Virus record (IMG/VR): IMGVR_UViG_3300044655_000269
Span: 1 to 47,895 of that record
From: a virus
Strand: one strand, 5' to 3'
Length of the DNA: 47,895 nt
Shown one piece after another: positions 4,944 to 10,507 of this stretch (position 1 is its first letter; each line of letters begins with the position of its first letter). Under the pieces are notes generated by a model that worked only from the letters and a program-made list of their open reading frames with translations, made no database searches and was not told the DNA's origin. The translations under genes and the position numbers were made by a program.

Positions 4944-6442
4944 ATAAGATTATCACCCGTGACTGGATAAACGACGACATTGTTATCCGTTGTGGTGTGA
5001 CATACAAGATGCCTAGAAAGGTGTTGATTGAAAGTTACACCAAACAGGATTTGTGTCAGTTTATAAATTTCTGGAAGGTAGAATTGCTATCTAATGGAGC
5101 CAAGCGTGGTGATAAGATAGGCTATTGTATCGAACCTTCAGACATTCACTCAACCGCACTTATGTTTGCTGCTTTCGAGTTAGGCATGAGTGTGGTTGTT
5201 TTGCATAGACCAAACAACGAAAGAGAATGTCTGGCCCCTAAAAGTAACTCACACCTACCATTAGACTTCTTTGTTTATCTGGCAGCGTATGAGCATATTC
5301 CATTACTAGTTACCGCTATAGTTCATTTCAGTCGTAACTCAAAGAAGGTATTGGTGTATGGTAATCACGATTGGCAGAACCAGCGTTCGACTCTAAAATC
5401 AGACGAAGAAACTCCCATACTAGCCCAGCCGGGTGATGTTGCTCTATTGTGCAATAGCAGCGGCACTACTGGTGTTCCTAAACTCATATCACACACCCAT
5501 GAGTTTTTCTATGACCTATGCACGTATAACTGGGAGGTGTTGAAATATGATCCTGAGGATCATTTCATGCATCTTTCTTCGCTCAATCATGGTGCCGCAT
5601 TATCATTTGTTCTACCTGCACTACACATATGCAAGCATAACTATTTTTATGTTGATATGGGTGGCAAAGGTGAGTTACAATCAGATCCTTTCTATCAAGA
5701 ATACTACGATCTAACTAACGACTGTATTGAGCATGGCATCACCAGAATATTCTGTGCAGGTGGTGGCGCTATCAATGAGTTTATCAAACACCTAAGAGCA
5801 AGAGATATCAAGCTACCCAATACTAACATTATGATACTATCATTCATTAGTCCTGACTGGCGTGCTGCTATCAGCGAGAGTGTGCTACAAAGCATTAACA
5901 GCCCATTTGGATGTAGTGAGGTATGTGGTCCAGTGTTCATGACATGGCTTGATAAGGATACTGTAGATAAGTTTGATCCTAGATATCTGGGATATCCTAC
6001 AGAAGGCTTCTATGATACAAAGGTCATTGATGGTCGTATTCATACTAGCACACCTTACAATCAGGTTGTCTTTGATGACATTGTAGAAGAAAGAGCCGAT
6101 GGCTATTACTTCAAGAGTAAGAACAGACTGCAAAAGCTAAACGATATTGATATCAATCCAGTGGATATTATGGAGATACTTGAGCATTATAATACCAGAT
6201 ATGCGTTTGAGATTTATATTGACGAGGTCTATAATGAGTTGTATATTCTAACGTCAGACTCGAAAACGTATAAGATGGGTAAGTTTATCGTGGAAGATAT
6301 CGACTCGTTCTATCACGGTAAGATACCCACCGCTAATGTCATATATGATCCCGAACTAAACCAAGCCACGATAAGCAACAAAGCGGACAAAGATAAGCTG
6401 GCAGGTATAGTTGAAAGATATCGCTTGACAAAAAACTCCTGA
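4940..6442 (+). CDS. Adenylate-forming enzyme (AMP-binding, ANL superfamily)
   Basis: A 500-residue protein of the acyl-CoA synthetase/adenylation-domain superfamily, which activates carboxylates as acyl-AMP. The ATP-binding A3 loop is clear at about residues 170-186 (CNSSGTTGVPK). An A5-like FGCSEVCGP lies at 323-331, and an A7/A8-like segment runs GYYFKSKNRLQKLNDIDINP at 388-407. The small C-terminal subdomain is present but diverged; I do not see the usual PKTxSGK lysine motif, so it may adenylate an unusual substrate or be altered in the second half-reaction. Start is GTG 4940, overlapping the previous stop. No carrier protein, thioesterase or other biosynthetic gene lies nearby. Rare in T4-like phages; probably acquired. 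Confidence 0.85.
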   Translation: MNKIITRDWINDDIVIRCGVTYKMPRKVLIESYTKQDLCQFINFWKVELLSNGAKRGDKIGYCIEPSDIHSTALMFAAFELGMSVVVLHRPNNERECLAPKSNSHLPLDFFVYLAAYEHIPLLVTAIVHFSRNSKKVLVYGNHDWQNQRSTLKSDEETPILAQPGDVALLCNSSGTTGVPKLISHTHEFFYDLCTYNWEVLKYDPEDHFMHLSSLNHGAALSFVLPALHICKHNYFYVDMGGKGELQSDPFYQEYYDLTNDCIEHGITRIFCAGGGAINEFIKHLRARDIKLPNTNIMILSFISPDWRAAISESVLQSINSPFGCSEVCGPVFMTWLDKDTVDKFDPRYLGYPTEGFYDTKVIDGRIHTSTPYNQVVFDDIVEERADGYYFKSKNRLQKLNDIDINPVDIMEILEHYNTRYAFEIYIDEVYNELYILTSDSKTYKMGKFIVEDIDSFYHGKIPTANVIYDPELNQATISNKADKDKLAGIVERYRLTKNS

Positions 6443-6455
6443 TATGTTATAAATA
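6425..6455 (+). promoter_or_regulatory. Overlapping sigma70 and T4-type late promoter for the tmRNA
   Basis: TTGACA at 6425-6430, a 17-base spacer, then TATAAATA at 6448-6455. The first six bases of the octamer serve as a sigma70 -10 box (TATAAA), and the whole octamer is the exact T4 late-promoter consensus. Transcription would start near 6460, just before the acceptor piece of the tmRNA. The promoter overlaps the end of the upstream enzyme gene. Confidence 0.8.
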
Positions 6456-6459
6456 CTAT

Positions 6460-6770
6460 GCTTAGGTCGTTGAGAGACGAAACATAGGTTTCTTGGACGT
6501 GGGGGCAGTTCCCACCCGGTCCACCATAAGCACTTGCGTATTAGCCGCACCATGAAAATGACGTATGCGGGGGAATGTAAATCGGGTAGTGCTTATGATG
6601 GGCCGGAATCAGGTTCGACAGGATTCAGTAAGGTCGTAAGGAGACCGAAAGCAAATCGTAAATGCAAACGACAACAATGCATATGAGGCTTTCGCTCTAG
6701 CAGCGTAATCCTTTGGGTATGGGCTCCACCTCGAAACAGAACGGGCCCGCTATGTGTTCCATCGCACACG
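6460..6770 (+). ncRNA. ssrA: Permuted two-piece tmRNA (tag ANDNNAYEAFALAA)
   Basis: Circularly permuted tmRNA gene of the alphaproteobacterial kind. The acceptor piece comes first: a T-arm (GTGGG/CCCAC, 6499-6503 with 6511-6515, 7-base loop GGCAGTT), CCGGTCC at 6516-6522, discriminator A and encoded CCA ending at 6526. The coding piece starts at 6600 with GGGCCGG, which pairs over all seven positions with CCGGTCC (one G-U), followed by the D-like AATCAGGTTCGACAGG. The resume codon is GCA 6664; the tag is ANDNNAYEAFALAA with TAA at 6706-6708, and its ALAA end is a ClpXP-type degron. The GTTCGACAGG signature and AAATGCAAACGAC context fit tmRNA. The 5' and 3' outer ends are approximate. It would rescue stalled ribosomes during infection. 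Confidence 0.93.
6525..6597 (+). other. Excised spacer between tmRNA pieces, closed by a 10-bp inverted repeat
   Basis: CATAAGCACT at 6525-6534 and AGTGCTTATG at 6588-6597 are perfect inverted repeats flanking the segment between acceptor and coding pieces. An inner CCGCA/TGCGG stem (6545-6549 with 6566-6570) lies within. The outer stem stacks next to the acceptor stem and should present the CCA end and the 5' end of the coding piece for processing, as in other permuted tmRNA precursors. Confidence 0.75.
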
Positions 6771-6787
6771 ATTTTCCCCTTTTTCAT

Positions 6788-6795
6788 TATAAATA
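6788..6795 (+). promoter_or_regulatory. T4-type late promoter element TATAAATA
   Basis: Exact TATAAATA, 19 bases before the ATG of the 31-residue membrane peptide, placing the expected start near 6801. It sits in the loop between TTTCCCC and GGGGAAA inverted arms (about 6773-6812), so the read-through transcript and the new transcript would fold differently around the ribosome site. Confidence 0.7.
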
Positions 6796-6814
6796 CCAAT
6801 GAGAGGGGAAAGCC

Positions 6815-7350: not shown

Positions 7351-8133
7351 ATGATGTTTAGTGAATATGAAGTATATGATATTGAAAAAGCAAAGAACCA
7401 TATCAAAACTCTAATCGGAACCCGTAGCCTTTTGTGGAATGGTATCACTCGCAATGTCGTGATTGCTGGTGGTTTCTTTACAAGCGTTTTACAAAACACA
7501 CCTTTCAAGGACGTTGATATCTTTATTCTGAACAATGATGTTGATGTTTATAACAACTTGACCGAGCGCCAGCAGCGGCCGCTATGGCGCCGATCTGAAA
7601 TGATGTCATACATGCACAATAAAAACATTGTTGATGTTATCAATAATACTAAAACAGATGCACAGTATATTCTCACCAAGTATAAGACCCGTGAGGAACT
7701 ACTGAGTCACTTTGATTATAAGCATTGCAAGGTTTCATTTGTTCCTGCGGAAGATAAACTCTATATCAACCGTGAGACCTTCGACTGCATCAAGAATAAG
7801 ATCCTCAAGTGGAACAACAATAAACAACTTGAACACCCAAATCAGATATATCGTAAGAACAGGTTTCTCAATCAAGGTTGGGTGCTTGAAACAGATAAAA
7901 AAGAAGAACAATCATATGGTAATATTTTGATGCAGTCTTATGAGAAGTTGAATTATGAGAAGTTGAAAGAATTGAAAGAAGAAGCTGCGGCCAAGATGTT
8001 GGATGCATACGGACTCCCCCCGATGCAGCAACAAAAAGAATATGTTGATGCATATTCTATGGCGGCACCAGTGCCATATGACAATCAAGGCTTCATAGCA
8101 CAAACAGTTGATAATATCCTACAGATAAAATGA
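7351..8133 (+). CDS. Nucleotidyltransferase-fold protein
   Basis: A 260-residue protein with the polymerase-beta nucleotidyltransferase signature: GGFFTSVL at about residues 34-41, then 8 residues later DVDIFIL (D50, D52), matching hG[GS]xxxS...DxDhh. A third acidic residue is not obvious. Similar proteins occur in T4-like phages of marine bacteria. Substrate unknown; nucleotide transfer to RNA or protein is possible. The C-terminus is Gln/Glu/Lys-rich with PPMQQQK. Two adjacent ATGs begin at 7351. It sits between gp33 and gp59, and its stop overlaps the gp59 start (ATGA). Confidence 0.75.
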   Translation: MMFSEYEVYDIEKAKNHIKTLIGTRSLLWNGITRNVVIAGGFFTSVLQNTPFKDVDIFILNNDVDVYNNLTERQQRPLWRRSEMMSYMHNKNIVDVINNTKTDAQYILTKYKTREELLSHFDYKHCKVSFVPAEDKLYINRETFDCIKNKILKWNNNKQLEHPNQIYRKNRFLNQGWVLETDKKEEQSYGNILMQSYEKLNYEKLKELKEEAAAKMLDAYGLPPMQQQKEYVDAYSMAAPVPYDNQGFIAQTVDNILQIK

Positions 8134-8741
8134 AACACTTTTCTGGCTATGGAGCATATCTGTTATTCTTAGCCTTGCGAACTCATTTCACTAAGGCTAA
8201 GTATGACTTCTTTCAGATGAACGGCAAACTCCGTGCAAACAAGGAGTCGTATCTAAAGCGTAACGATAAGGCGTTCTTTGAAAAGTTGGCGAAACTATAT
8301 AATGCCGAAGAACTAAAAAACTTCTACGTTGCAAATCTTTTAGATGATCGGCATTATATAACCGATATGTTAGAGGAGGATGCTCATGGCTCATTCTATG
8401 AACTACAGAAGCGACAACAATCTCTCTCCTACATATTCAGAAATGACATGGAGAAAGTCTTTGAGCATGGCTGTAAATCTGCTTTCGCTGTTAACGATGG
8501 TGACTACCCTGCTGTTGTCAGTATGGTTATGCGTAGAGATATTACTATTGAGTCTGCGATTATTTTGAATGACTTTGTTCCATATGCTGATAAGTTTGAT
8601 AAATACTTAGGAGACGATGATATCATTTGGTCCAGAATTGCTTTGAAGCTGCGGAAGTATAAACCATTCGTTAAGTATGACTCCGACAAATTCAAAGCCA
8701 TATTGAAGGAGAAGATCGATGGTACCGGTAATACAGGGTAA
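8130..8741 (+). CDS. 59: DNA helicase loader gp59
   Basis: A 203-residue homologue of T4 gp59 (217 residues), which loads replicative helicase gp41 onto gp32-covered forks and coordinates leading-strand start. The N-terminal block KAKYDFFQMNGKLRANKESY, then KRNDKAFFEKLAKLY, parallels T4 GKYDVIKYN...YQKRRDKYFFQKLSEKY. A second half with LNDFVPYADKFD and IALKLRKYKPFV parallels the T4 LLDSFLNIIDKHD...SIKLKAYRKIL region. All-helical composition fits. It lies upstream of gp32 and downstream of gp33, the same cluster as in T4 but with a different internal order and an added nucleotidyltransferase gene. Confidence 0.85.
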   Translation: MKHFSGYGAYLLFLALRTHFTKAKYDFFQMNGKLRANKESYLKRNDKAFFEKLAKLYNAEELKNFYVANLLDDRHYITDMLEEDAHGSFYELQKRQQSLSYIFRNDMEKVFEHGCKSAFAVNDGDYPAVVSMVMRRDITIESAIILNDFVPYADKFDKYLGDDDIIWSRIALKLRKYKPFVKYDSDKFKAILKEKIDGTGNTG

Positions 8742-8913: not shown

Positions 8914-9214
8914 ACGACAAAAGAGATTTCAACAAAAAGAACGCCATATCGAACGCCAGTTTGATATTGCTAAATCTAACCATCACGGTTACTATAACGA
9001 CAACAACAAACACAAGTTGCACAAGAAACATGCCATGAACTGTGGTGTTCCTGGTTGTCTTATGTGTGCTAATCCTCGCCGCACATGGGGTGAGAGAACA
9101 CTACAAGAAGTAAAGTTTGAGTGTCAGGCTATTGAAGATGTGAGAAAGGATCCTATCTCTAGACAAGAATGGGAAGACTTGAATGATCCTGACATTGATT
9201 GGAATGGTAACTAA
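8891..9214 (+). CDS. Small basic Cys-motif protein
   Basis: A 107-residue protein, strongly basic in its first 55 residues (Lys/Arg/His/Asn), then a HxxNCGVPGCLMCANPRRTWGE motif (CxxxxCxxC) typical of a widespread family of short phage and bacterial proteins of unknown function, then an acidic tail. The Cys cluster with the neighbouring His suggests zinc, and the basic arm suggests nucleic-acid binding. GGAGG lies 12 bases before the ATG; the nearer ATG at 8883 stops after three codons and is not used. Confidence 0.75.
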   Translation: MNYSDKTKRQKRFQQKERHIERQFDIAKSNHHGYYNDNNKHKLHKKHAMNCGVPGCLMCANPRRTWGERTLQEVKFECQAIEDVRKDPISRQEWEDLNDPDIDWNGN

Positions 9215-9243
9215 ATAATAAAAACAGTTAAGGAGAAAGGTAT

Positions 9244-9426: not shown

Positions 9427-9434
9427 CTATATAC

Positions 9435-9463
9435 TTGACAGGGGCTTCGGCCCCTGTTATAAT
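9435..9463 (+). promoter_or_regulatory. Consensus sigma70 promoter of gp32 with a hairpin spacer
   Basis: TTGACA at 9435-9440 and TATAAT at 9458-9463 with an exact 17-base spacer: both boxes are perfect consensus. The 20 bases ACAGGGGCTTCGGCCCCTGT (9438-9457) form a perfect 8-bp stem with the very stable C(UUCG)G loop and fill the spacer plus half of the -35 box. In a read-through RNA it would act as a barrier hairpin; in DNA it is a palindrome inside the promoter. The leader from about 9470 to the gp32 ATG is about 55 bases. Confidence 0.88.
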
Positions 9464-9524
9464 ACTACTATTGTTATGATGATGTGGATAATACGACTAT
9501 ACAACGTTATACGGAGAAAATACA

Positions 9525-10479: not shown

Positions 10480-10507
10480 GGGGAGCAGAAATGCTCCCCT
10501 TTCTTTT
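10480..10507 (+). terminator. Rho-independent terminator of gp32
   Basis: GGGGAGCA (10480-10487), loop GAAA, TGCTCCCC (10492-10499), then TTTCTTTT. It closes the replication block where it meets the convergent minus-strand hub operon. In the opposite direction no T-run follows the stem, so termination is mainly rightward. Confidence 0.92.

Follow-up and report, generated by a model that had tools for sequence, protein, structure and literature searches.

A conserved hairpin within the consensus promoter ahead of gp32 in uncultured T4-like phages, with signs of selection on RNA

The closest described relatives of the element analysed here are the promoter-early stem-loops (PeSLs) of T4-like phages. 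A paper of 2010 is reported to have found their stem-loops to be effective terminators, and RB49 is said to be a phage of that paper. PeSLs are treated in Arbiol 2010 (doi 10.1093/gbe/evq006) and Comeau 2014 (doi 10.1093/gbe/evu129), as cited in PMC4503421 and PMC3950731, and the title quoted in PMC4503421 presents them as "composite conserved promoter-terminator motifs." Overlapping early and late promoters form another described class: according to PMC2984593, they represent the supposed middle mode in RB49 and S-PM2, and some S-PM2 genes with both promoters have no middle profile. The gene 32 leader of T4, T2 and RB69 has a pseudoknot and an RNase E site at -71 (PMC3014915), and in ompA a 5'-terminal stem-loop stabilises the mRNA (Emory 1992, through its citation in PMC7509114).

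We analysed a stretch of 47,895 nucleotides from a virus (IMG/VR record IMGVR_UViG_3300044655_000269, positions 1 to 47,895), referred to below as the window, and list in Table 1 the features around its gp32 gene. The 29 bases at 9435-9463, TTGACAGGGGCTTCGGCCCCTGTTATAAT, make up a sigma70 promoter with a 12/12 match, a 17-nt spacer and TG ahead of the -10 box; an exact TTGACA-N16-18-TATAAT occurs at one site in the whole window, where 0.09 are expected. The spacer holds a palindrome, ACAGGGGC-TTCG-GCCCCTGT (9438-9457), which begins 87 nt upstream of gene 32 and whose eight Watson-Crick pairs are extended to ten by flanking G.T and T-A pairs. It is predicted to fold with -18.6 kcal/mol when RNA and -9.9 kcal/mol when single-stranded DNA, none of 200 shuffles equals the energy of the RNA fold, and it is the sole TTCG hairpin with at least six Watson-Crick pairs across the window. 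The first-pass annotation of this DNA had pointed out a fully consensus promoter with a UUCG palindrome between and partly within its boxes, and both the 12/12 match with TG and the 8-pair stem bear this out.

Three of the eight pairs (ACA with TGT) are dictated by the -35 box and the TGT before the -10 box, so the independent evidence within a single sequence amounts to five pairs and the loop. By itself, the hexamer CTTCGG shows no clear enrichment across the window, with 14 copies against an expected 9.1. An Rfam scan above the gathering score matched no family at the hairpin, and family searches with the upstream ORF gave no match. The strong evidence for this predicted hairpin is comparative. 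The comparative tests are independent of the pairs that the boxes supply free.

Table 1. Features of the gp32 region, in coordinates of the window
Feature	Position	Strand	Remarks
gp59-type helicase-loader gene	8130-8741		upstream of gp32; small ORFs after it
CTAAATA, candidate late box ahead of upstream ORF	9211-9217	+	
Small upstream ORF, 60 codons	9244-9426	+	co-directional; stop 8 nt ahead of TTGACA
CTATATA, candidate variant late (gp55-type) box	9427-9433	+	1 nt ahead of -35 box; weak here
-35 box TTGACA	9435-9440	+	consensus match
Stem-loop, 10 pairs	9436-9459	+	8 Watson-Crick pairs within 9438-9457; covariation in relatives
TTCG (UUCG) tetraloop	9446-9449	+	C-G closing pair
TGT and -10 box TATAAT (extended -10)	9455-9463 (TATAAT 9458-9463)	+	
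Predicted sigma70-transcript leader, hairpin-free	9470-9524	+	start near 9470 inferred from -10 box
gp32 single-stranded DNA-binding protein, 315 aa	9525-10472	+	phrog_224, E 3e-105; Pfam PF08804, E 1e-43
Intrinsic-terminator-like hairpin, ordinary type, 3' of gp32	10480-10499	+	followed by TTTCTTTT

The only families matched by the Rfam scan were tmRNA families, in the window and in three of the four relatives scanned (L021, L039 and L048; no family matched in stretch L038). The window has a permuted two-piece tmRNA of the alphaproteobacterial kind at 6434-6799 (Rfam 6421-6751) with the tag ANDNNAYEAFALAA, and a promoter-like TTGACA...TATAAA at 6425-6453 overlaps its predicted start. A tmRNA of this type is a hint that the host may be alphaproteobacterial and that ribosome rescue may be under phage control.

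A search with the gp32 protein gave 114 relatives, from which we took the best 80 loci irrespective of their promoters. Sixty-three of these 80 are at 66-100% identity, and in 58 of them the promoter region can be read; of the other five, L019 and L052 are truncated by contig ends, and L045, L063 and L064 begin inside the gene. In all 58, seven or eight of the eight stem positions are paired, with G.T allowed. The gp32 loci yield 28 distinct hairpin versions (alignment A1), in which 98.2% of the cells are paired; 49 cells show a double change, against 14.0 (sd 4.5) in shuffles, and the covariation score is 0.438 against 0.161. Five pairs have changed on both sides (3.0 in shuffles; 8 of 500 shuffles reach five), and because the rows of the alignment are related, these shuffle counts are not probabilities. 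Sliding the partners as a control lowers pairing to 38-59%. Conserved and covarying in relatives, the composite of promoter and hairpin proposed at gp32 by the annotation is real.

The same 80 loci include 17 at about 50% identity, where the promoter is found in 16 and pairing at 2-5 of the eight positions. With the relatives at 66-100% paired and those at about 50% paired at few positions, the hairpin marks one clade. At six named gp32 loci (S-SRM01, DLP6, P-HM2, S-SM1, P-RSM4 and S-CREM1), read for 170 nt upstream of the match start (in DLP6, of the annotated start), we found no spacer hairpin of the window's type. The loop varies among the gp32 versions (TTCG, GAGA-type, TTAG, CTCG and CCTG), so UUCG itself is not essential. 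We considered the GAGA-type loops as RegB sites and dropped the idea, as GGAG is not kept in the sequences.

Other arrangements were seen between promoter and gene. L039 (just after 2884), L040, L048, L061 and L062 have about 54 extra nt inserted after the -10 box, ahead of the gp32 leader; the insert of L039 folds as a long stem, and early RNA there would also begin near a strong structure. Upstream of gp32 in DLP6 (KU682439, L355), there is a TTGACA, with TATAAATA at the -10 position and the hairpin GATCATCGGCATGATGATC directly after it, which reads as another way to join an early box, a late box and a hairpin close to the 5' end.

Is the selected molecule RNA or DNA? A palindrome that acts in its DNA form predicts equal numbers of G.T and A.C mismatches, each being the opposite-strand reading of the other. 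We counted mismatches in the four stem columns that vary, taking 27 distinct gp32 versions (from 55 of the 58 loci, as the search pattern omitted the version of L015-L017) and 16 distinct motif versions. There are 14 G.T, one A-A and no A.C mismatches, in sets that share a few versions, none of them mismatched, and whose related rows are not independent events; the unpaired Clostridia control gives 7 G.T, 4 A.C and 23 others. The loop-closing column of the gp32 set, whose pair may belong to the loop, has a further 12 G.T, two others and no A.C. The direction is plain: the comparison points to RNA of the promoter's own strand as the constrained molecule, and argues against a cruciform and a repressor site.

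The hairpin promoter also occurs ahead of other genes. A pattern search of IMG/VR that fixed the boxes and CTTCGG but left both stem arms free gave matches in at least 119 viral contigs; a loop-reversed control in the same collection found 2, with an identical 29-mer paired at 4 of the 5 inner positions. Among the matches listed (80 loci, 81 sites), 72 sites pair at 4/4 free positions and 9 at 3/4, and there are 16 different stems. A promoter-only search, with the spacer unconditioned, gave five sites paired at all five inner positions among the 133 listed; four of these have UNCG loops (TTCG twice, TACG and TGCG) and one is A/T-only, and both TTCG sites are already in the free-arm set. UNCG loops are very stable as RNA. 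In bacterial genomes, the pattern was found in 13 MAG contigs titled Clostridia, Ruminococcus, Gallimonas or Oscillospiraceae, where 1-3 of the 5 inner positions are paired; with 0/13 fully paired, we rejected a hairpin promoter native to bacterial hosts. Four Clostridia MAG loci (L341, L343, L346 and L353) share a near-identical promoter region, CGTCCCG-TTGACAAnTTCTTCGGGGCGTGTTATAATG...TTATCGTTGCGCGCGCA, which is unpaired as this hairpin and looks like another conserved element.

Sixty of the 73 downstream proteins among the matches listed join one family by blastp, 4 are gp32 and 3 are the gp44 clamp loader. The member of the large family in L136, the only annotated locus among the 60 (set L082-L161), is a DUF2201 metallopeptidase/VWA protein behind an AAA (MoxR-like) ATPase gene; Gp23, looked for as a sign that the contigs of the DUF2201 set are T4-like, was found in 1 of 13, partial and at the contig end. 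The best upstream ORF among the matches listed, with ORFs taken mechanically, is co-directional at 74 of the 81 sites, opposite at 4 and absent at 3, and usually stops within 20 nt of the -35 box. Each of the 23 contigs searched whole has one match, many contigs being fragments, and in two contigs of 165-174 kb the 10-pair stem occurs only at gp32 among the listed promoters with 0-1 mismatch. L118 (14694 bases) has two spacer-hairpin promoters with different stems, with single copies elsewhere, and contig G004 has one other promoter with an 8-pair A/T-rich stem. In named phages, a short-query BLAST matched mostly at chance level; one close site, TTGACACCTCCTTCGGGAGGTGTTATTGT, lies between hypothetical genes of Aeromonas phage Ahp1_CNU-2021. 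Our literature search on hairpins inside promoter spacers found no paper.

These results bear on the suggestion in the first-pass annotation that the palindrome might be a repressor site, or might extrude as a cruciform under negative supercoiling. The perfect palindrome in a promoter spacer and its predicted fold as single-stranded DNA speak for such a DNA element. However, pairing is conserved while the stem sequence varies, the mismatch counts lack the both-strand symmetry that DNA predicts, and UNCG loops are found at 4 of the 5 fully paired sites listed in the spacer-unconditioned sample. We consider a palindromic operator or a supercoil-driven cruciform very unlikely, and this part of the annotation is not supported. 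Nor do we give more than a negligible chance to a fortuitous palindrome built on the ACA/TGT complementarity of consensus promoters. The boxes do contribute 3 of the 8 pairs, and the 5/133 fully paired promoter-only sites listed, one of them A/T-only, could be read in this way; but such an accident would have to produce covariation and conservation across the gp32 relatives and a yield of at least 119 contigs where the reversed loop gives 2, while none of the 13 bacterial-genome matches of the same pattern is fully paired.

Which RNA carries the hairpin? The sigma70 transcript probably starts about 7 nt past the -10 box and would then be without it; the predicted leader folds no better than shuffled sequence. 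Since the hairpin lies upstream of that start, it is carried only by RNAs begun upstream, namely transcripts that run on from the upstream gene and those of any promoter located between it and the -35 box. RNA from the candidate late box ahead of the upstream ORF would read through the hairpin. The annotation had suggested that in read-through RNA the hairpin could isolate gp32 translation from upstream transcripts, and a role in such RNA fits. Its account is partly supported; the late-type box and the hairpin-free sigma70 transcript were missing from it.

HTAAATA stands exactly 4 nt ahead of TTGACA in 20 of 33 distinct gp32 flanks, and at no other spacing within 40 nt. When the upstream ORFs are clustered by blastp, all six clusters, some of which may be distant relatives, include at least one such case; overall, 15 of 28 distinct short flanks have the box at 4 nt, and 4 of 14 in the window's own cluster, the window itself deviating in both letters and spacing (Table 1). 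According to PMC1524935, late promoters of T4 have TATAAATA from -13 to -6, and in Aeh1 the late box CTAAATA starts at -12. With this spacing and the 4-nt gap, the late +1 would be the second T of TTGACA, the base at which pairing in the stem begins; the variant in the window would put it at 9439, inside the stem foot. Across the window, 8 of 22 TAAATA lie within 60 nt before 7 ORFs of at least 100 aa. Five of these ORFs belong to baseplate wedge (two), virion structural, tail tube cap and DNA end protector families, and the other two have no assigned function or are tail-fibre-assembly-like.

In the gp32 promoters of S-SM1 and S-CREM1, CTAAATA lies within the sigma70 spacer. HTAAATA was found in 0 of 59 distinct flanks, at any spacing, among the matches listed in the CTTCGG set, which includes a few gp32 loci. 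The DUF2201 and gp44 junctions have the same spacer hairpin with no late box, so late RNA does not account for them. Alternatively, the A/T-rich box may serve the sigma70 promoter as an UP element.

We are also interested in whether the spacer hairpin acts as a terminator. Of the 34 distinct versions at gp32, 33 have at most 4 T among the 8 nt that follow and the remaining one has 5, and for hairpins 3' of the gp32 stop there are at least 6 T in 23 of 27 distinct cases. In L044, L054 and L055, the upstream ORF ends 53-62 nt off and has its own UUCG hairpin after it, and the spacer hairpin is still kept. The T-tract counts and these extra hairpins speak against termination as the main role. We compared 47 locus pairs whose downstream DNA is at least 90% alike; in 26 of them, the likeness of the upstream DNA does not exceed the 99th percentile for shuffled flanks. 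Of the 13 pairs that are alike upstream, none is divergent downstream; a stricter preset cut for flank exchange, applied first, was passed by 1 of 820 pairs. These counts suggest that the cassette stays with gp32 while the DNA ahead of it changes, which matches the swap-point idea of PeSLs.

In RB49 (AY343333, L214 and L215; 119 of 164 kb covered), we find 106 promoter-like sites, with hairpins in the spacer at 11, around the -10 box at 5 and shortly upstream of the -35 box at 7. Counted over the 8 nt that follow, the spacer hairpins have 1-4 T and the seven upstream, terminator-like hairpins 6-7. The promoter of RB49's own gp32 has no spacer hairpin. Given the 11 spacer hairpins of RB49, the architecture of promoter and hairpin is not new. 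The element differs from PeSLs in that it mostly occurs once, at a core gene, that its loops are TTCG or GAGA-type, that a late box precedes it in register, and that there is evidence from covariation and from the strand test.

A strict PeSL, in which the hairpin is the terminator of the upstream gene fused to the next promoter at a gene swap point, would explain why RB49 has its 11 hairpins in the same spacer position, why the upstream ORF listed is mostly co-directional and ends so close to the -35 box, and why so many downstream-alike gp32 pairs differ upstream; the wording of the PeSL title favours it as well. Yet the T tract is absent after the stem in all but one of the distinct gp32 versions, and RB49's own spacer hairpins are as poor in T compared with its upstream ones. 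The element is mostly single copy in the contigs searched whole (L118 being the exception), three junctions also have a terminator-like hairpin of their own, and a late box directly ahead of a terminator would be self-defeating. We therefore regard a strict PeSL as possible, though unlikely. Alternatively, once the upstream mRNA has been processed or terminated by Rho, the hairpin might guard its 3' end, with the promoter fused to the hairpin for compactness. It does begin shortly past the upstream stop codon at most sites, such a role would account for the DUF2201 and gp44 junctions, and the G.T bias fits plus-strand RNA; but a 3'-end stabiliser would have little reason to be kept in L044, L054 and L055, or to remain with gp32 when the upstream DNA is exchanged, and we think it quite improbable.

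On the comparative evidence, the hairpin-promoter is real, conserved and constrained at the RNA level. We favour, with a probability of about one half, a dual-coded gp32 control cassette in a clade of uncultured T4-like phages, which would combine an early promoter with a hairpin for late and read-through RNA. As DNA, the 29 bases would be a strong early promoter for host sigma70; as RNA, the same bases would fold as a stem-loop that is absent from the sigma70 RNA, which starts downstream. Late (gp55-type) transcripts would begin at about the stem base and carry the hairpin, and read-through RNA from the preceding gene would carry it too. The stem-loop might then provide a protected, ompA-like 5' end for late gp32 mRNA and might separate gp32 mRNA from upstream RNA, and early and late gp32 mRNAs would differ at their 5' ends. 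We infer the use of the late box, the start sites, and stabilisation or insulation as the benefit. With no late box at the DUF2201 and gp44 junctions, these are better served by the read-through half of the model.

A further, more tentative proposal is that the 29 bases form a stage switch: early gp32 mRNA would be free of the hairpin, the late promoter 4 nt upstream would give an mRNA starting exactly with it, and stability or autoregulation would change from early to late, while the hairpin would be bound to a second duty as promoter spacer. The locus shows selection on an RNA fold within a bacterial-type promoter that must remain a working sigma70 promoter. The strand-specific G.T test separates an RNA from a DNA role by sequence alone and could be reused on other promoter palindromes. 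If the predicted late start is true, gp32 would have mRNAs of two stages with different 5' ends, and this would give a handle on gp32 control in T4-related phages lacking the T4 pseudoknot, a question left open in PMC3014915.

Like PeSLs, the cassette has a strong sigma70-like early promoter (12/12 with TG) in T4-like phages, a stem-loop joined to it in the same position as the 11 RB49 hairpins, and a place at a boundary of gene exchange, where close relatives have different upstream DNA. The many dispersed copies that a genome has of PeSLs were not found; there is usually one per contig, at a core replication gene. Where RB49 has many copies with other loops, the loops here are TTCG or GAGA-type and a late-type box stands in register. 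The overlapping early/late promoters of RB49, S-PM2 and Syn9 resemble this locus in placing a sigma70 promoter and a TAAATA-type box at one replication gene, and the fixed register of the late box is found in the clade (20/33 at 4 nt), the window having only CTATATA. In S-SM1 and S-CREM1, however, the box is inside the spacer with no such hairpin, whereas here it lies upstream and late RNA would begin with the hairpin.

As in the ompA type of stabiliser, the stem is predicted at or very near the 5' end of the late RNA; unlike it, the hairpin is encoded inside another promoter and is absent from the early RNA. T4, T2 and RB69 likewise have an RNA structure 65-90 nt ahead of gene 32, but the one predicted here is a simple stem-loop rather than a leader pseudoknot of the T4 type and lies upstream of the early start, outside the early leader. 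The first-pass annotation had called a distinct control site attractive, T4 controlling gp32 tightly through leader RNA structure. CUUCGG hairpins of T4 mRNAs are said to have been described by Tuerk in 1988. The window shares with them a C(UUCG)G loop in intergenic phage RNA, and differs in that its hairpin is fused into the boxes of a promoter.
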